Origin: Brachyspira pilosicoli
Lineage (GTDB): Bacteria > Spirochaetota > Brachyspiria > Brachyspirales > Brachyspiraceae
Direction: 5' to 3'
Assembly: GCF_008016535.1 (NCBI RefSeq)
Contig: NZ_SAXY01000030.1
Coordinates: forward strand, 62,001-126,000
Length of the DNA stretch: 64,000 bases
Shown: positions 367-28,415 of the stretch, in pieces
How the letters are laid out: each line of letters starts with the position of its first letter
Numbering within the stretch: position 1 is the first letter of the stretch
The notes under the pieces: generated by a model
The model's input: the letters and a program-made list of their open reading frames with translations, nothing else
What the model was told of the DNA's origin: nothing
Databases searched by the model: none
Position numbers and translations under genes: made by a program

Positions 367-1167
367 TTAAATACTAGTAGAATTCCATATTGTTAATCTC
401 TTTTCTATATATCTCATTAAAGAAGATAATAATAAACCAACTAATCCTATAGTTATCATACCAGCTAAAACCTGAGGTATATTTGCCGTATCATAACCTC
501 TTATTATAACCCAACCTACACCAGCAAAAGAACTCACCATCTCTGCCGCTAATACTCCCATCCAACTTACAGAAAAACCAACCTGCATCCCATTAAATAT
601 CTGAGGCACAGAAGCAGGCAATATAACATGCAAAAATATATCCGTATCATTAGAACCCAACATCCTAGCAGCCCCTATAAGAGTAGGATTAACTTGAGAA
701 CTTCCAGCATAAGAGTTTAAAGTAACATTAACAAAAGTACCAATAAATATTATAAACACCTTAGGCACTTCCCCTATTCCAAACCAAAGTATAGCCATAG
801 GTATCCAAGCTATAGGAGGAATTTGCCTAAATACTTCAAAAAATGGTCTTACTATAGCCCTTGCATATTTATTAACTCCCATAGATATTCCTAATATAAT
901 ACCGCTCACAGCACCTATAGCAAAACCAGTTAATACTCTAAATATACTTATTAATATATGACCTAATATAGTTTGCTGACCTATATCATTAGTCAAGCTC
1001 CATATTAAAAACTTAAATACTTCTAACGGTTTAGGAGTAGTAATTTTAATAGGGGTATAAGTTGTTAATAATTGCCATACAACAAGAAACCCTATAATGG
1101 AAATAACCGCCCAAATAGGTTTTTCAAAATCAGATAATTTAACTCTTTTTTTATCTTTATTTTTCAT
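367..1167 (-). CDS. ABC transporter permease (SsuC/TauC-like), first of two
   Basis: A 266-residue inner-membrane permease of the BPD_transp_1 fold with about six hydrophobic segments. The cytoplasmic coupling (EAA) loop is visible as GAARMLGSNDTDIFLHVILP around residues 165-185, and an IPPIAWIPMAILWFGIGE segment typical of sulfonate/nitrate permeases lies near 115-132. It follows a second, paralogous permease gene by 14 nt and precedes the ATPase gene by 23 nt, so the transporter probably uses a heterodimeric membrane domain. The ATG at 1167 has an AGAGGTT site. Sulfonate, taurine, nitrate and thiamine-precursor importers share this family, so specificity is open. Confidence 0.9.
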   Translation of the reverse strand: MKNKDKKRVKLSDFEKPIWAVISIIGFLVVWQLLTTYTPIKITTPKPLEVFKFLIWSLTNDIGQQTILGHILISIFRVLTGFAIGAVSGIILGISMGVNKYARAIVRPFFEVFRQIPPIAWIPMAILWFGIGEVPKVFIIFIGTFVNVTLNSYAGSSQVNPTLIGAARMLGSNDTDIFLHVILPASVPQIFNGMQVGFSVSWMGVLAAEMVSSFAGVGWVIIRGYDTANIPQVLAGMITIGLVGLLLSSLMRYIEKRLTIWNSTSI

Positions 1168-19660: not shown

Positions 19661-20608
19661 TTATTTAATTACTTCTTTTACTCTGCTTAAAACATTTTCT
19701 CCAGATACACCATATTTTACTTTTAATTCTGTAGATTTACCAGATTCAGTGAAAGTGTCTCTGCATCCAACTATTTTTAAAGGAGCAGCATCTTTATACT
19801 CAGCAAGCACCTCAGCTACAGCACTTCCCAAACCACCTATAACGCTATGATTCTCTAAAGTTACAACACATTTAACTTGTTTAGCATTTTCTACTATATT
19901 TTTAGTGTCTAAAGGTTTTAAAGAACGAACATGTATTAAACGATAAGTGATGTTATTTTTCTCTAATAAATTAACAGCATCCACTGCCTGTTCAAAAGAA
20001 GAACCATCAAAAAATAATGCAACATCATCACCAGTTTTAGCTATTTCTTTATTTGTAATATCAAAATTAGCCTCTTCAGGAGAGTTATAAATAATAGGTA
20101 CAGGCTCTCTTGATACTCTTATATAATAAAGCCCTTTATTATTGAAAGCATAATTAATAGCAGATTTAACATCATTTTCATCAAGAGGAAGAAGTACATT
20201 CATATTTGGTATACAACGTATTATAGCCATATCCTGTGTAGCTTGGTGGCTTGCACCGTCAGGACCAGCATCTAAACCTGGGTGAGTAGCTATAATTTTA
20301 AGATTAGCTTTAGTGTAGGCAGCCTGTCTAATTTGAGTCCATACAGTACCGCTTGCAAATATAGCAAAATTAACATATACAGGATACATTCCTTCCAATG
20401 CTAAACCAGTAGCAGCACTTAAAGAACTTTGCTCACCAATACCCAATTCCCAATAATTTTTTGGAAAAGTTTTAGTTACATCATAAGCAGATGTTGATGT
20501 ACCTAAATCATTATCTATTACAATTATCTTATTATTTTTTTCTATTAAACTAGTTAAATGTTTACCTATTACCGCTCTAGGAGCAGAAGTTTTTTCTATG
20601 TTTATCAT
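19661..20608 (-). CDS. Transketolase, C-terminal subunit
   Basis: 315 residues holding the pyrimidine-binding and C-terminal domains of transketolase. ELGIGEQSSLSAATGLALEG (about 55-74) carries the catalytic glutamate that activates thiamine diphosphate, and the HPGLDAGPDGASHQ segment (about 108-121) matches the family. With the N-terminal subunit encoded 21 nt upstream it forms the split enzyme typical of many anaerobes, moving two-carbon ketol units in the non-oxidative pentose phosphate pathway. The ATG at 20608 follows an AAGGGG site. Confidence 0.92.
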   Translation of the reverse strand: MINIEKTSAPRAVIGKHLTSLIEKNNKIIVIDNDLGTSTSAYDVTKTFPKNYWELGIGEQSSLSAATGLALEGMYPVYVNFAIFASGTVWTQIRQAAYTKANLKIIATHPGLDAGPDGASHQATQDMAIIRCIPNMNVLLPLDENDVKSAINYAFNNKGLYYIRVSREPVPIIYNSPEEANFDITNKEIAKTGDDVALFFDGSSFEQAVDAVNLLEKNNITYRLIHVRSLKPLDTKNIVENAKQVKCVVTLENHSVIGGLGSAVAEVLAEYKDAAPLKIVGCRDTFTESGKSTELKVKYGVSGENVLSRVKEVIK

Positions 20609-20629
20609 AAATATTATTCCCCTTTTTTA

Positions 20630-21436
20630 TTACATATCTAAATCTTTTTTTGCTTGCTCAAAATCTTTATCATTTATAGTTAAAGAATGGCAATTAGGGT
20701 TATTTTCCAAGAAAGAAACACCTTTACCTTTTACAGTTTTCATTATAATAGCAACAGGTTTTCCGCTTAATGTATCTAATTTGTCTAATGCTTCAACAAC
20801 ATCTTTCATATTGTTTCCGTCTTTTACTGTTATAACATTCCAATTAAAGCTTTTGAATTTATCTTCTAAAGAGCCTAAATTAATAACTTCATTAACAGGG
20901 TCATGTGAAGATAGTCCATTATTATCTATAATAGCAACTAAATTGTCTAATTTAAAATGAGCAGCTTGTTGGGTAGTTTCCCAAATTTGTCCTTCATGAA
21001 GTTCAGCATCACCACATAAAGCAAATATCTTATTAGGGTTATTGTTAAACTTTCTAGCATAAGCCATACCCATAGCCACAGCTAACCCCTGACCTAAAAG
21101 ACCAGTATTCATCTCTGTTTCTGGTATCTTATTGATATCTGGGTGTCCTTGAAGATGACTGTTAATATGCTTTAATGTTTTTAGCTCTTCCATAGGTATA
21201 ATTCCTAGATTAGCTAATATAGCATATTGCATAACAACAACATGTCCTTTAGATAATACAAAACGAGATCTGCCGCTTTCTTTAAAATTAATATATTTGT
21301 CATATACAGCAACAGCCATATCCATAGCAGATAAAGATCCGCCTATATGTGCAACACCTTTTGCATCATACACCATTTGAAGAAATATTTGTCTGCATTT
21401 TTTTGCTTTTTTTTCTAATTCTTCTATAGAACTCAT
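20630..21436 (-). CDS. Transketolase, N-terminal subunit
   Basis: 268 residues carrying the thiamine diphosphate-binding domain. VLSKGHVVVMQYA (about 62-74), TGLLGQGLAVAMGMAYA (about 111-127), the GDAELHEGQIWE metal/diphosphate block (about 142-153) and IDNNGLSS (about 170-177) are diagnostic. It pairs with the C-terminal subunit gene 21 nt downstream. GGAGG precedes the ATG at 21436. The operon ends at the terminator at 19593-19634. Confidence 0.92.
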   Translation of the reverse strand: MSSIEELEKKAKKCRQIFLQMVYDAKGVAHIGGSLSAMDMAVAVYDKYINFKESGRSRFVLSKGHVVVMQYAILANLGIIPMEELKTLKHINSHLQGHPDINKIPETEMNTGLLGQGLAVAMGMAYARKFNNNPNKIFALCGDAELHEGQIWETTQQAAHFKLDNLVAIIDNNGLSSHDPVNEVINLGSLEDKFKSFNWNVITVKDGNNMKDVVEALDKLDTLSGKPVAIIMKTVKGKGVSFLENNPNCHSLTINDKDFEQAKKDLDM

Positions 21437-21620: not shown

Positions 21621-23255
21621 TTATTTTTTTAATGCATTAGACATTTTTTTATTATAAAATTTAGGAGCTAATATTGCCATTATACACATTATTACAAAAC
21701 CTGTTAACAAAGAGAAGAAAGGATTTAAAGTGATACCTCCAACTATAACTCCCACAAATGAAGCAATAGCTACCAAACTTGCATAAGGAAGCTGTGTGCT
21801 AACATGTTCAAGTAAAGGGCAGTTACTTCCAGTAGAAGAAAGTATTGTAGTATCAGATATAGGAGAACAGTGGTCGCCAAATACAGCACCAGAAACTAAA
21901 GAACCTACACTAATGAGTAGTACATTCAAAAGCTGATCTCCTGTATAACCATTAGCATTAGCAAGACCTGTAGCAATAGGTATCACTATAGGAATAAGTA
22001 TAGCAAAAGTACCCCAGCTTGTTCCAGTAGAGAAAGCTATAACACATCCAAGCAAATAACCAATAGCAGGAAGCAGCCAAAGCGGGAAACCGCCACCTTT
22101 AACCACCTCAGATAAGAAAGAAGCTAATCCTAAACCGCCTTCTTCTGGTGATGATTTTATAACATTACCAATAGTCCAAGCCAAAGCTAATACAACCAAA
22201 GCAGGCACCATAGATTTTATACCTTCCATTATGGCATTACCAGCAGAACGAACACTTAAAAGTTTTCTTGCAACATAATAAATATACATTATCATAAGCG
22301 AAATAACTGCTCCATAAAATAAAGCCTTAGAAGCATCTGTTTGTATAAAAGCATTTGTAACAGTAGTGCTGTTAAAAGCTTGAGATAAAGTTTCTATACC
22401 GTCAGAGCCAATTAAACCCATATATGTAGTAATAGGGAACATTGCTATACAAGCCAATATTAATACCAATATAGCTATAACCATATCATACCACTTAGCA
22501 CTGTCGCCTGAAATAGTCTCTAAATTACCAGGACAAGAACCATACAAATCCTCATTAAATAATTTGCCGTTAGCCGCATCATCTTCACTTCTTTTCATAG
22601 GGCCGAAATCTTTAAAAAACAAAGATATAAGAACTACAAAAGCCAAAGCTAAAAGAGGATAAACAGAATAAGGTATCATCTTTATAAAGAATATAAACTC
22701 ACTCATATTCAAAGATTCAAACCCATTAGAATCTCTAATATAACTCATCACCGTTACAACCCAAGTAGATATAGGGGCAAGTATACAAACAGGAGCAGCA
22801 GTAGAATCTAATATATAAGCAAGTTTAGCCCTAGAAATCTTTTTTTCATCGAAAGCAGGACGCATTACAGTACCCACAGAAAGACTATTAAAATAATCAT
22901 CTATAAATATAATAAGCCCAAAAAACCAAGTAAATATTAATACACTCTTTTTAGTTTTAAGGTATTTGCTAGCCCATAAACCAAAAGCCTTAGTAGCACC
23001 TGTTTTTGAAAGCATGCTAACAAATGCACCAAGCAAAGCACAAAATAAAAGTATTCTCACATTCCAAGAATCCCCAGTCATAGCAGCAACTTTATCGGTA
23101 AATATAGTGATAGCAGTAAATATGTTTCCATGTGAAAGTATTAAAGTACCAGAAAGTATACCAACCGTTAAAGAGATTATTACCTCTTTTGTAAGAAGGG
23201 CGAGTATTATAGCCAAAAGCGGCGGTATAATACCAAATAAACCGTAATGTTCCAT
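21621..23255 (-). CDS. NhaC-family Na+/H+ antiporter-like transporter
   Basis: About 544 residues from the ATG at 23255, chosen because AGGAG lies 11 nt upstream and the 13 codons before it overlap the leader terminator region. It has about 12 hydrophobic segments. Family signs are GLIIFIDDYFNSLSVGTVMRP (about 115-135), FSTGTSWGTFAI (about 407-418) and VFGDHCSPISDTT (about 453-465). Members exchange Na+ for H+, and some relatives carry amino or organic acids instead (for example lactate/malate or tyrosine/tyramine-type exchange). The gene sits behind a promoter, a 17-residue leader peptide and a terminator that look like an attenuator, which would suit an amino-acid-linked substrate better than Na+/H+ alone. 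Confidence 0.88.
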   Translation of the reverse strand: MEHYGLFGIIPPLLAIILALLTKEVIISLTVGILSGTLILSHGNIFTAITIFTDKVAAMTGDSWNVRILLFCALLGAFVSMLSKTGATKAFGLWASKYLKTKKSVLIFTWFFGLIIFIDDYFNSLSVGTVMRPAFDEKKISRAKLAYILDSTAAPVCILAPISTWVVTVMSYIRDSNGFESLNMSEFIFFIKMIPYSVYPLLALAFVVLISLFFKDFGPMKRSEDDAANGKLFNEDLYGSCPGNLETISGDSAKWYDMVIAILVLILACIAMFPITTYMGLIGSDGIETLSQAFNSTTVTNAFIQTDASKALFYGAVISLMIMYIYYVARKLLSVRSAGNAIMEGIKSMVPALVVLALAWTIGNVIKSSPEEGGLGLASFLSEVVKGGGFPLWLLPAIGYLLGCVIAFSTGTSWGTFAILIPIVIPIATGLANANGYTGDQLLNVLLISVGSLVSGAVFGDHCSPISDTTILSSTGSNCPLLEHVSTQLPYASLVAIASFVGVIVGGITLNPFFSLLTGFVIMCIMAILAPKFYNKKMSNALKK

Positions 23256-23299
23256 TTTTTGAGTAACTCCTATTTTTTTATATATTACATTCAAATAAA

Positions 23300-23326
23300 A
23301 AAGCCCCCTATATTTAAGGGAGCTTT
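23300..23326 (-). terminator. Attenuator terminator upstream of the NhaC-family gene
   Basis: AAAGCTCCC (23326-23318) pairs with GGGGGCTTT (23308-23300) across TTAAATATA, followed by a T run. It lies between a short leader ORF and the antiporter start, with no other gene to terminate, so it should gate transcription into the antiporter gene. Confidence 0.8.
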
Positions 23327-23371
23327 TAAATTGCTAAACCACGAATAATGAATAAATAATTTAACACTCCC
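23318..23371 (-). promoter_or_regulatory. Predicted antiterminator pairing in the NhaC leader
   Basis: GGGAGTGTTAAATT (23371-23358), which spans the last leader codons and stop, is complementary to AATTTAAAAGCTCCC (23332-23318) except for a small internal loop. The second strand contains the whole 5' arm of the terminator, so the two structures are mutually exclusive. A ribosome reaching the leader stop would cover the first strand and favour the terminator. Confidence 0.65.
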
Positions 23372-23414
23372 AAACGATAAGAGGTTTATTTTGTTTCTTA
23401 AATTTATTCATCAT
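23361..23414 (-). CDS. Leader peptide MMNKFKKQNKPLIVWEC
   Basis: A 17-codon ORF with an AGTAGGAAA site directly before its double ATG at 23414. It lies just downstream of a promoter at 23442-23470 and just upstream of an intrinsic terminator. The end of the peptide holds Pro-Leu-Ile-Val-Trp-Glu-Cys, and its last codons form one strand of a predicted antiterminator. This is the layout of ribosome-mediated attenuation. Which residue is sensed is not obvious: stalling at the Leu/Ile/Val codons would leave the antiterminator strand partly free, while stalling at Trp would cover it. A nascent-peptide sensor is an alternative. Confidence 0.65.
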   Translation of the reverse strand: MMNKFKKQNKPLIVWEC

Positions 23415-23441
23415 TTTCCTACTTTCTTTTTATAGTAACTG

Positions 23442-23470
23442 ATTCTACTACAAAATATTAACTTTGTCAA
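23442..23470 (-). promoter_or_regulatory. Promoter of the leader peptide / NhaC-family gene
   Basis: TTGACA (23470-23465), 17-nt spacer, TAGAAT (23447-23442). Transcription should start near 23435, about 20 nt before the leader ATG. Confidence 0.75.
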
Positions 23471-24076: not shown

Positions 24077-24565
<489 letters not shown>

Positions 24566-24610
24566 TTATTTTCTTTTTTAATTATTAAATATTTATATAT
24601 AAAAAACTAA

Positions 24611-26470
24611 TTAAGCTACCTTTTTAAGTGGCTTATACTCTTTTCCGCCGCCCTCAAAACCAACATTATTGTAGAACTCTACAAATGTTAATCTCAAAGG
24701 GTGTACCAAAGCACCAAGTATGTTTAATGCGAATATTGCTATGTGTCCAAATACTAGGAATACAACCATTATAACAGCACCAACACCCGGTATAGCTTTG
24801 AAACTCATGCCTATTTGGTTTATTACTAATGCCAATATAGAACCAGAAGCACCTAAAGCAAACAAACGAATATAAGAAAGTGTGTCCCCCATTATACCAG
24901 TTGCCGCAAAATAAACACCAAGTATAGAGTTTAATACATCTGGCTTTTTACCAACATTAGAAAGTATTACTAAGAATACCAAACCAACAATCATAGCTAT
25001 ATAATATATAGAGCTGAATTGTTTGATAACTTGCATTTTCTGCATATCACCCAAGAACCATAAAACAAGGCTTGGTATAAATAAAAGTTTACCAATAGCT
25101 CCAAATATATCACCTATAGAACTAGTTTTAATTCTATCTATAACACCAACTACTAAAGCAAAACATATATGAAGTACCCCTATAAGTAATGCTGTATTAA
25201 ATGGAGTTAAGAACCAATTTTCTTTTATGTCTGTAATTATTAAATACTTACTTAAAGTAGCAAATAAAGGTATTTGAGTATTAGAAGGTATGCTCACACC
25301 AAAGAAACTACCTCCATTTATAATACCCATAATAGTAGTACATATTCCAAGTGTTAAAGCAAGTATACCAATACCTCTTAATTGTCCCTTTAACACAGTA
25401 AATAATCCTACTAAAGCTACTATAGTTAATACTAAACCATAACCAGAGTCCCCAAAACAATAAGCGAAAAATAACGGATAGAAAACTGCTATCATAGGAG
25501 TTAAATCTATCTCGAAATAATTAGGCAATTGGAACAACTTTGTAATAAGCTCATAAGCAGAAGAATACTTATTGTTTTTAAGCTCAACAGGTACATTATC
25601 ATCTTTTGTAGGCTCTTCCATTATGTAAGCTATTTTTTTGCTGTCGAGTAAAGTTTTAACTTCGCTCTCTTTATCTTTAGGTACATAAGCTTCAACATAA
25701 AGTATCTTGCCTTCAGTAACCTCACTAGCTACAAAACTCTCTTTAGCCTCTTCAAAATGATTCTGCAAATTAAGACTATCAACTTCTTTATTAATAGCTT
25801 CTATATATACCTGATTTTTTATTATATCATTTTCAATATCTTCTATTTTTTTATCAAGTTCAGATATTTGAGTTTTTAATTCATCATAAGATTTATTAGG
25901 CATATTAATAATGTCAAAAGCAATTGCCTCTTCGCTGCCCTCTTTTTTAAAAGCAACAAAATAAACCTTACCAGCCTCTTCTTTTATAGCATAAGTAAAT
26001 ATGCCGCCAAAATTATAAGCTTCATACTCTTTTATAGGAGCATTAAAAAATGATATATCATAAGAAGTTTTTTCTTTTAAGTTGTTAATCTTATCAAAGC
26101 TAAAACTTCCAAAAGGAGCTATAATAGATAATTCTTTTTTAAGATTATCTCTTTCAGCTTTTAATTTATCAGAAGATTGAGATAACTGTAAAATATTGTC
26201 TATTACATCAGATGCTTTTTTATTAGTATCAGCTGCTTTTAGGCTAGATATATCTTTTTTAGCTTTTTTAGCATCAGATAAAGCATTATTTATAATAGTT
26301 TTAGCTCTATTAGCATCATTTTTTTGAGCGGCAATATTTTCTATATTTTCAGATGAAACGCCGTTAGCAATTTCTATATGCACAACTCCAAGAGAAGCTA
26401 AATCATTTAGAGTTTTTTCCCTATCCTCATGAAAGACAAAGAGAGAGAGTTTCTTCATTTTTCTAATCAT
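24611..26470 (-). CDS. V-type ATPase subunit I (a-type stator)
   Basis: 619 residues: an N-terminal cytoplasmic half (about 1-320) with long coiled coils, and a C-terminal half with about seven membrane helices. The LSYIRLFALGASGSILALVIN segment (about 535-555) carries the conserved arginine needed for ion release from the rotor. It forms the stator ion channel beside subunit K. Its start overlaps the end of the subunit D gene by 4 nt (ATGA), indicating translational coupling. Confidence 0.93.
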   Translation of the reverse strand: MIRKMKKLSLFVFHEDREKTLNDLASLGVVHIEIANGVSSENIENIAAQKNDANRAKTIINNALSDAKKAKKDISSLKAADTNKKASDVIDNILQLSQSSDKLKAERDNLKKELSIIAPFGSFSFDKINNLKEKTSYDISFFNAPIKEYEAYNFGGIFTYAIKEEAGKVYFVAFKKEGSEEAIAFDIINMPNKSYDELKTQISELDKKIEDIENDIIKNQVYIEAINKEVDSLNLQNHFEEAKESFVASEVTEGKILYVEAYVPKDKESEVKTLLDSKKIAYIMEEPTKDDNVPVELKNNKYSSAYELITKLFQLPNYFEIDLTPMIAVFYPLFFAYCFGDSGYGLVLTIVALVGLFTVLKGQLRGIGILALTLGICTTIMGIINGGSFFGVSIPSNTQIPLFATLSKYLIITDIKENWFLTPFNTALLIGVLHICFALVVGVIDRIKTSSIGDIFGAIGKLLFIPSLVLWFLGDMQKMQVIKQFSSIYYIAMIVGLVFLVILSNVGKKPDVLNSILGVYFAATGIMGDTLSYIRLFALGASGSILALVINQIGMSFKAIPGVGAVIMVVFLVFGHIAIFALNILGALVHPLRLTFVEFYNNVGFEGGGKEYKPLKKVA

Positions 26471-27066
26471 AAAGACGCCTCCTTAGCTCTGTTTCTTTCT
26501 TTTACTATCTTTTGAGAAGACTTACTTAAATTTTCTTCATCTTCCATATACCTTTTAATTTTGATTATAGCTGTTTTATACTCAGGAATTTGTACTTTCT
26601 CATAAAGGTTAACTTTCTGAGTAGTTTTTTTCCTAGCATAAGCCAAAGCATTAAGCCTATTTTCTGTCATTTCAATTTTTATTTGTAATGTCATAAGCAG
26701 CTCAAACATATTAATGGCAAGCCTAATCCAAGAAGGCATATTAAACATGCTGACATTTTCAATATCAAAGTCTATTCCTGTTAATATAGAAACCTTAACA
26801 CCCGCAATATTTTTTTTCTCAGAGTTTACATTTCTAATCTTAACAATCTCAGGAAACTCAGTCCAAAAACCATTATAGTTTTGATTTTGTTTCACAAGGG
26901 CTTGATATTCTTCTTTAAGTAATTCAATCTCAGCGGTAATCTTTCTCACCTCAAGACGAAGTGCTGCCTCTTTACTTTTCAAAGTAGGCAAAGCTTTCTC
27001 ACGAATGGAAAGCTGGCGTCTTAGGTTTTGAAGAGCCGTTTTATTGTATTGAAACTTTAATGCCAT
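26467..27066 (-). CDS. V-type ATPase subunit D (central stalk)
   Basis: 199 residues, almost entirely two long coiled-coil helices at the ends (about 10-70 and 125-195), as expected for the rotor shaft inside the A3B3 head. NALAYARKKTTQKVN (about 138-152) fits the conserved NALE-type region of the family. It lies 23 nt after subunit B and overlaps subunit I by 4 nt. Confidence 0.92.
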   Translation of the reverse strand: MALKFQYNKTALQNLRRQLSIREKALPTLKSKEAALRLEVRKITAEIELLKEEYQALVKQNQNYNGFWTEFPEIVKIRNVNSEKKNIAGVKVSILTGIDFDIENVSMFNMPSWIRLAINMFELLMTLQIKIEMTENRLNALAYARKKTTQKVNLYEKVQIPEYKTAIIKIKRYMEDEENLSKSSQKIVKERNRAKEASL

Positions 27067-27089
27067 ATTTTTTAACCTACTTTTAAAAA

Positions 27090-28415
27090 TTAATTATTTG
27101 TCCATTTACCGTATTGCTCTACTAAGGATTCTTTTATACCAACTTCTGCTTTACTAAAGTATTTGGACATTAATTCCCAGCCTGTTTCTAACATCTCATC
27201 AATTTTAATGTTAATGTCTATTGCAAGTAATCTTTCAGAATATTCAGCAGCATATTTCAAACATCTTTCATCATATTCAGTTAAGTCGAAACCGTTTTCT
27301 TTCTTCATTTTAGCATTAGCAGCATCTGAATAAAGACGAACTAAAGTGTTCATTACAGCAGGGTGGTCTTCTCTAGTTTTCTTACCTATAACCAACTGTT
27401 TCAAACGTGAAAGACTTCTGAATGGGTCAATGATTGTTTTACCTATGTCAGAGTCACGTCTTAAGTAAAGCTGACCTTCAGTGATGTAACCAGTGTTGTC
27501 TGGTACAGCATGAGTAATATCACCTTCGTTAAGAGTAGTAACAGCGATAATAGTAATAGAACCGCCGTCAGGGAACTGAGCTGCTTTTTCGTAGATTTTA
27601 GCAAGGTCAGAATATAATGAACCTGGCATAGAGTCTTTAGAAGGAATCTGGTCCATTTTGTTTGATACTATAGCTAAAGCGTCAGCATAAAGAGTCATGT
27701 CTGTAAGAAGTACAAGAACTTTTTGCTTATGCTCAACTGCGAAATATTCTGCAGCTGTACAAGCCATATCAGGTATCAAAAGTCTTTCTACTGGAGGGTC
27801 ATCAGTAGTGTTGATGAAACATATAATTTTATCTAATGCTCCAGCTTCAGTAAATGTATTTTTAAATGATAAATAGTCATCGTTAGAAAGTCCCATACCG
27901 CCAAGGATAATCTTGTCAGCTTCAGCTCTCAAAGCAACCTGTGCAAGTACTGCGTTATAAGGCTGGTCTGGGTCTGCGAAGAATGGGATTTTTTGTCCTG
28001 TTACAAGTGTGTTGTTAAGGTCAATTCCGGCAATACCAGTAGCAATAAGTTCAGAAGGCTGTTTTCTTCTAACAGGGTTTACTGAAGGTCCTCCGATTTC
28101 TACCTCTTTACCTTCAACTTCAGCACCTCCGTCTATAGGCTCGCCATAAGCATTAAAAAATCTTCCTGCAAGAAGTTCGCTTACTTTAAGTATAGGAGGT
28201 CTGCCTAAAAATACAACTTCAGCGTTTGTAGGTATACCTTCAGTACCTTGGAAAACCTGAAGCGTAACAATATCTCCAATCATTTTTACAACCTGAGCAG
28301 GTCTGCCGGCTACTAGAGCCATCTCATCGTTACCAACATTTTCTGCTCTTAAAGATACAGTTGCTTTAGTAATTTGTACTAATTTTGTATATACTTTTTG
28401 AAATGCTTTAGGCAT
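27090..28415 (-). CDS. V-type ATPase subunit B
   Basis: 441 residues, the non-catalytic nucleotide-site subunit of the A3B3 head. Family markers are GPSVNPVRRKQPSELIATGIAGID as an interrupted block (GGPSVNPV and PSELIATGIAGID, about 110-133), KIPFFADPDQPYN (about 144-156) and a C-terminal helical domain. The P-loop is degenerate, as is normal for B subunits. Its start overlaps the end of subunit A by 8 nt. Confidence 0.94.
   Translation of the reverse strand: MPKAFQKVYTKLVQITKATVSLRAENVGNDEMALVAGRPAQVVKMIGDIVTLQVFQGTEGIPTNAEVVFLGRPPILKVSELLAGRFFNAYGEPIDGGAEVEGKEVEIGGPSVNPVRRKQPSELIATGIAGIDLNNTLVTGQKIPFFADPDQPYNAVLAQVALRAEADKIILGGMGLSNDDYLSFKNTFTEAGALDKIICFINTTDDPPVERLLIPDMACTAAEYFAVEHKQKVLVLLTDMTLYADALAIVSNKMDQIPSKDSMPGSLYSDLAKIYEKAAQFPDGGSITIIAVTTLNEGDITHAVPDNTGYITEGQLYLRRDSDIGKTIIDPFRSLSRLKQLVIGKKTREDHPAVMNTLVRLYSDAANAKMKKENGFDLTEYDERCLKYAAEYSERLLAIDINIKIDEMLETGWELMSKYFSKAEVGIKESLVEQYGKWTNN

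Follow-up and report, generated by a model that had tools for sequence, protein, structure and literature searches.

A candidate lysine-codon attenuator in front of an NhaC-superfamily transporter gene in Brachyspira

The locus considered here raises the question of what signal controls an NhaC-type transporter gene of Brachyspira pilosicoli, and through what kind of leader. The gene lies in the window, which is the whole stretch of 64,000 nucleotides that was analysed. A sequence-only reading had described a promoter, a short leader ORF and an intrinsic terminator before the gene, and had proposed ribosome-mediated attenuation with induction when translation is slowed near Pro-Leu-Ile-Val-Trp-Glu-Cys. 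All the parts described are present. The interpretation preferred here, to which a probability of about three in four is assigned, is a trp-type ribosome-mediated attenuator that uses lysine codons and controls a LysW-like transporter.

The features described below are on the minus strand. The promoter, TTGACA-17-TAGAAT (23442-23470), is the joint-best sigma-70-like match (11/12) in the 4.5 kb scanned and is also conserved upstream of orthologues. In this 4.5-kb scan no promoter-like site was found on the minus strand in the interval between terminator and transporter gene. The predicted 5′ end of the transcript (23418-23438) carries a small hairpin or dyad, which reads TTACTATAAAAAG..AAGTAG in the window and TTACTATWAAAAGTAA in many relatives. 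The leader ORF (23361-23414) encodes MMNKFKKQNKPLIVWEC followed by a stop codon and comprises 17 codons from the first ATG or 16 from the second. The second ATG (23411-23409) is the likely start because the first position is ATA in four sister species. Leader codons were numbered from the invariant Trp codon. The intrinsic terminator (23299-23327) consists of 11 pairs followed by a U tract. Beyond it, an AGGAG at 23271-23267 precedes the ATG at 23255 of the gene for the 544-aa NhaC-superfamily protein (21621-23255), the candidate lysine transporter. Downstream of the transporter gene, transketolase is encoded by two adjacent genes, for its C-terminal and N-terminal halves (19661-21436), and V-type ATPase subunit-like genes lie upstream on the same strand (24077-28415).

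Of the 26 genomes of the genus, 25 have an orthologue of the transporter gene (75-100% identity), and the layout of promoter, leader and terminator is kept at 24 of the 25 orthologous loci, far more often than chance would give. The conserved leaders end in W-E-C/Y-stop, with W-S-stop in the most divergent one. At the remaining locus (L006, genome G001), leader and terminator have been lost, while the promoter and the hairpin at the transcript start are kept; this natural loss predicts lysine-independent expression in that species. Searching the genome of the window with a covariance model of the element returned a single copy (E = 9e-12; next match, E = 4). Because no such leader was found by eye in sister genera (L031-L033) or in about 40 other spirochaete orthologues, the element appears to be specific to the genus, having either arisen there or been retained only there. 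Orthologues without leader and terminator had been named as evidence against attenuation; within the genus they are confined to one genome, whereas they are the rule in every spirochaete genus inspected outside it.

The dyad TTACTATWAAAAGTAA at the predicted transcript start is nearly specific to the NhaC leader promoter and is retained in the leaderless L006; it was noted at L006 and L076 as well as in the window. It may serve as a 5′-end stabiliser or as an operator. A role as operator of a regulon was rejected, as matches occur mostly at the NhaC leader promoter only and the single extra match inspected adjoins unrelated genes.

With leader, terminator and antiterminator conserved genus-wide, the earlier assignment to ribosome-mediated attenuation stands, and anatomy and conservation together make a trp-type attenuator highly probable. 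A constitutive partial terminator accompanied by a chance ORF, without any regulation by translation, would agree with the genome of L006, which does without the element. It is nevertheless barely credible, given that 24 loci preserve the ORF frame, the Lys codons through synonymous change, an antiterminator in competition with the terminator, and GGGAG in frame at the stop.

The leader RNA folds better than 200 of 200 dinucleotide shuffles (z = -3.4). Region 3 (CUCCC, 23318-23322) pairs either with region 4 (GGGGGC, 23303-23308), the 3′ strand of the terminator, or with region 2 (UGGGAG, 23367-23372), the 5′ strand of the antiterminator. Region 2 lies within the Trp-Glu codons and is invariant except in one sequence. 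The complementarity of 23371-23358 with 23332-23318, pointed out earlier, does exist and forms this antiterminator, composed of GGGAG:CUCCC and an A/U helix whose sequence and length differ between species. The covariation check that had been recommended turned out to be largely uninformative, since GGGAG:CUCCC is near-invariant across leaders and hence gives no signal; in the A/U helix it yielded two double changes only.

Region 1 (CUCUUA, 23378-23383), for which region 2 and region 4 are alternative partners, lies in codons -4 and -3 and reads CUUCU in most relatives and CUCUU in the window clade. Codon -4 underwent nine amino acid changes on the gene tree (T, S, L, P, A and V occur across species), with a C kept at the third base (ACC, AGC, CTC, CCC, GCC or GTC). 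Such C-ending codons are rare here, serving 0.7-12.5% of their amino acid, as calculated from the long ORFs of the window. Because the third-base C is kept in spite of amino acid changes and by means of rare codons, region 1 is taken to be conserved as RNA. It mimics the 5′ arm of the terminator and its pairing with region 4 is compatible with 2:3 pairing. In many relatives, the minimum-energy fold contains 2:3 together with 1:4, and a reinforcement of the antiterminated state by 1:4 pairing is possible. For the window species, the terminator predominates at computed equilibrium (0.80) even when no ribosome is placed on the RNA; antitermination in this species would thus need to arise kinetically, which counts against the model.

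The effect of ribosome position was computed by folding with the RNA under the ribosome masked codon by codon, assuming a footprint that reaches 8-16 nt past the A-site. When region 4 was not yet made, 2:3 pairing had a probability of 0.97-1.00 in 24 of 24 ribosome-free leaders. Placing the A-site at tested codons between -9 and -4 left this value at 0.97 or above in every case, and it was 0 for an A-site at the stop. Over all footprints, the permissive zone always included A-site codons -9 to -5. From about codon -2 on, including Trp-Glu-Cys-stop, GGGAG is covered and 2:3 pairing is close to 0; with every footprint it was practically absent from -1 to the stop. For transcripts that included region 4, the terminator had a mean probability of 0.37 with the A-site at -8, rising to about 0.9 with the A-site at -3 or later. 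In these computations the antiterminator excludes the terminator, and a ribosome at the leader stop covers the antiterminator 5′ strand. Induction by slowing near Pro-Leu-Ile-Val-Trp-Glu-Cys, as first proposed, does not agree with this result. Among these codons of the window only P(-4), and for a short footprint also L(-3), would be suitable, and a ribosome delayed at Val, Trp, Glu or Cys (for most footprints also at Ile) would keep the gene off. The P, L, I and V residues are moreover not conserved, other species having for example T-F-C-S.

That an amino acid is the signal, as had also been suggested, is likely, and the conserved permissive codons are those of lysine. Lysine is the sole residue found in the permissive stretch of all 24 leaders. 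It occupies codons -9 and -8 in 23/24 leaders each, codon -6 in 19/24 and codon -5 in 16/24, and every leader has Lys at -5 and/or -6. In the window, the putative control codons are AAG AAA at -9 and -8 (23394-23399) and, in addition, AAA at -5 (23385-23387). Leader L018, the sole exception at -9/-8, has lost about four codons and still has Lys at -6 and -5. The gene tree shows three third-base changes (AAA/AAG) for codon -9 and four for codon -8, with one amino acid change each, corresponding to the L018 deletion; the neighbouring codons -10 and -7 underwent six and seven amino acid changes. Lys at -9/-8 is thus under selection for the amino acid, as otherwise only synonymous changes are found there while flanking codons change their amino acid. 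Lysine makes up 8.3% of residues in the genome (estimated from the same long ORFs) and leaders contain 3-4 Lys in 16 codons without a long run, so the enrichment is mild and the case is carried by register and synonymous change.

An attenuator of the same class might instead sense Phe, Tyr, Leu or Trp, as many leaders, such as MSNFFFYKKFKKSFFSWEC, are rich in F, L and Y, F(-3) is encoded by TTC in 18/24 leaders, and Trp never varies. NhaC-type transporters exist for other amino acids. However, a ribosome stalled at Trp or F(-3) blocks, or nearly blocks, the antiterminator, and the F-rich part varies freely (5-6 amino acid changes at each of codons -12 to -10) and is nearly missing from the window clade. 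Together with the lysine riboswitches on homologues described below, which have no upstream T-box, this makes sensing of another amino acid unlikely.

The C-terminus of the leader is constant as well, with W in 24/24, E in 23/24 and C or Y in 23/24 leaders and an almost fixed distance to the stop. This would suit an arrest peptide, of which the W-E-C-stop end stalls the ribosome near the stop in the presence of a small molecule, holding GGGAG so that the terminator stays on and the ligand acts as a repressor. Also invariant, though unpaired in most species, are the T of TGG and the preceding T. Against this, most of W-E is already fixed by the need for GGGAG pairing, there is wide variation at the residues expected along the exit tunnel (-7, -4, -2 and -1), and the Lys pair is left unexplained except as tunnel charge, making arrest quite improbable. 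The lysine attenuator accounts for the invariance of both Trp and Glu-Cys solely as RNA pairing.

The protein is a member of the NhaC superfamily (PF03553, E = 6.5e-45, 154 bits versus a gathering score of 23). Membership of Tet(35) was rejected, the NF000013 score of 180.6 bits being under the cut-off of 750. This sub-threshold match lends some weight to a general sensor of slowed translation, responding for example to ribosome-targeting antibiotics and governing an efflux pump similar to Tet(35); a stall anywhere at -9 to -5 would give read-through. Leader-peptide attenuators of drug-efflux genes are known (PMC4335068). Such a sensor is highly improbable, as the presence of the gene in 25/26 genomes at the identities given above suits a housekeeping role, the Lys register would be without function, and the riboswitches on homologues point to lysine.

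Scanning genomes of 84,980 species with the family alignment resulted in 80 loci, mostly from Firmicutes and of about 40% identity. The Rfam lysine riboswitch (RF00168) was detected in the upstream stretch of 28 of the scanned loci, in gene direction. The one at L138 was discarded, as another gene intervenes, which leaves 27 homologues with a riboswitch directly upstream, out of about 73 from outside the genus. The apparent gap between riboswitch and gene is largely an N-terminal extension of the protein. No T-box was found by Rfam upstream of the scanned homologues. One lysine riboswitch (L069, genome G239, 498-672, minus strand) precedes a 43% NhaC homologue in a spirochaete, the only one that Rfam found among the sister genera and about 40 other spirochaete orthologues. 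In a tree obtained by a quick method, riboswitch-bearing homologues are spread through the clade adjoining the spirochaete clade with the window gene. In the latter clade no lysine element is known outside the genus, and this, like the distance of the riboswitch-bearing homologues, counts against the lysine reading. Within the genus, RF00168 had no match in 26 genomes and none upstream of the window gene, and the T-box model RF00230 had none at the window leader.

LysW is a riboswitch-controlled NhaC-superfamily protein and a candidate lysine transporter (PMC5584792). Supported by two unrelated lines, lysine is probably the amino acid sensed here, and the protein would most likely be a LysW-type carrier for lysine. 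Import of lysine by the protein is deduced from the attenuator class and lysine sensing and would hold if both are right. As lysA is present in 26/26 genomes, lysine uptake would supplement synthesis; no leader was seen before lysA in the five genomes viewed.

From the observed anatomy, conservation, lysine register, computed exclusivity of the two structures and riboswitches on homologues, we infer how the element would function in the cell, with lysyl-tRNA charging as the signal and lysine as the substrate. A shortage of charged tRNA-Lys would slow the first ribosome at Lys codons situated 5-9 codons upstream of GGGAG. GGGAG, in the Trp-Glu codons, would then be left free to pair with the emerging CUCCC; this 2:3 pairing would remove the 5′ arm of the terminator, and RNA polymerase would continue into the NhaC-type gene. 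With ample lysine, the ribosome would reach the stop codon and cover GGGAG, upon which CUCCC would pair with GGGGG and transcription would stop. The wider picture, held with somewhat less confidence but still reasonably likely, is that the genus regulates an NhaC-type lysine transporter via ribosome stalling at Lys codons and distant bacteria do so via a lysine riboswitch, the leader acting as a four-strand switch with 1:2 and 3:4 in the off state and 2:3 and 1:4 in the on state.

No lysine attenuator or lysine leader peptide was found in the open-licence literature or in Rfam, such searches being inherently incomplete. Systems of this kind are known; amino acid, gene and lineage appear to be new, as far as found. 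If the interpretation is correct, this would be the first lysine-codon attenuator that could be found, and a clear case of a riboswitch and a translated leader serving one gene family and one signal. A substrate would be assigned to a transporter whose sole annotation is Na+/H+ antiporter, and lysine starvation and uptake would become directly testable in a gut spirochaete genus that includes animal pathogens.

Among known systems, Rfam reported no family over threshold on the window and a single sub-threshold match, to Phe_leader (RF01859). This match covers the antiterminator/terminator part at 29 bits, below the gathering score of 55, and Phe codons are not the conserved ones here. T-box leaders of amino acid genes would likewise read tRNA charging and control a terminator, but here a translated leader takes the place of a T-box. 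The lysine riboswitch (RF00168, L-box) before lysW/NhaC-type genes shares with the present element the transporter superfamily, the presumed signal and the off state with plentiful lysine; the element has no aptamer, however, and would read the signal via translation of Lys codons instead of via free lysine. The closest likeness is to trp-type attenuators (trpL, hisL, pheL, leuL, thrL and ilv leaders), with which it has in common a leader ORF with control codons, a region 2 overlapping the ORF end, mutually exclusive 2:3 antiterminator and 3:4 terminator, and a region 1 acting at the RNA level. It differs from them in its presumed control amino acid, lysine, in preceding a transporter gene and not a biosynthetic operon, in having only 2-4 control codons, in its spirochaete host and in the possible 1:4 pairing, through which both arms of the terminator could be sequestered.
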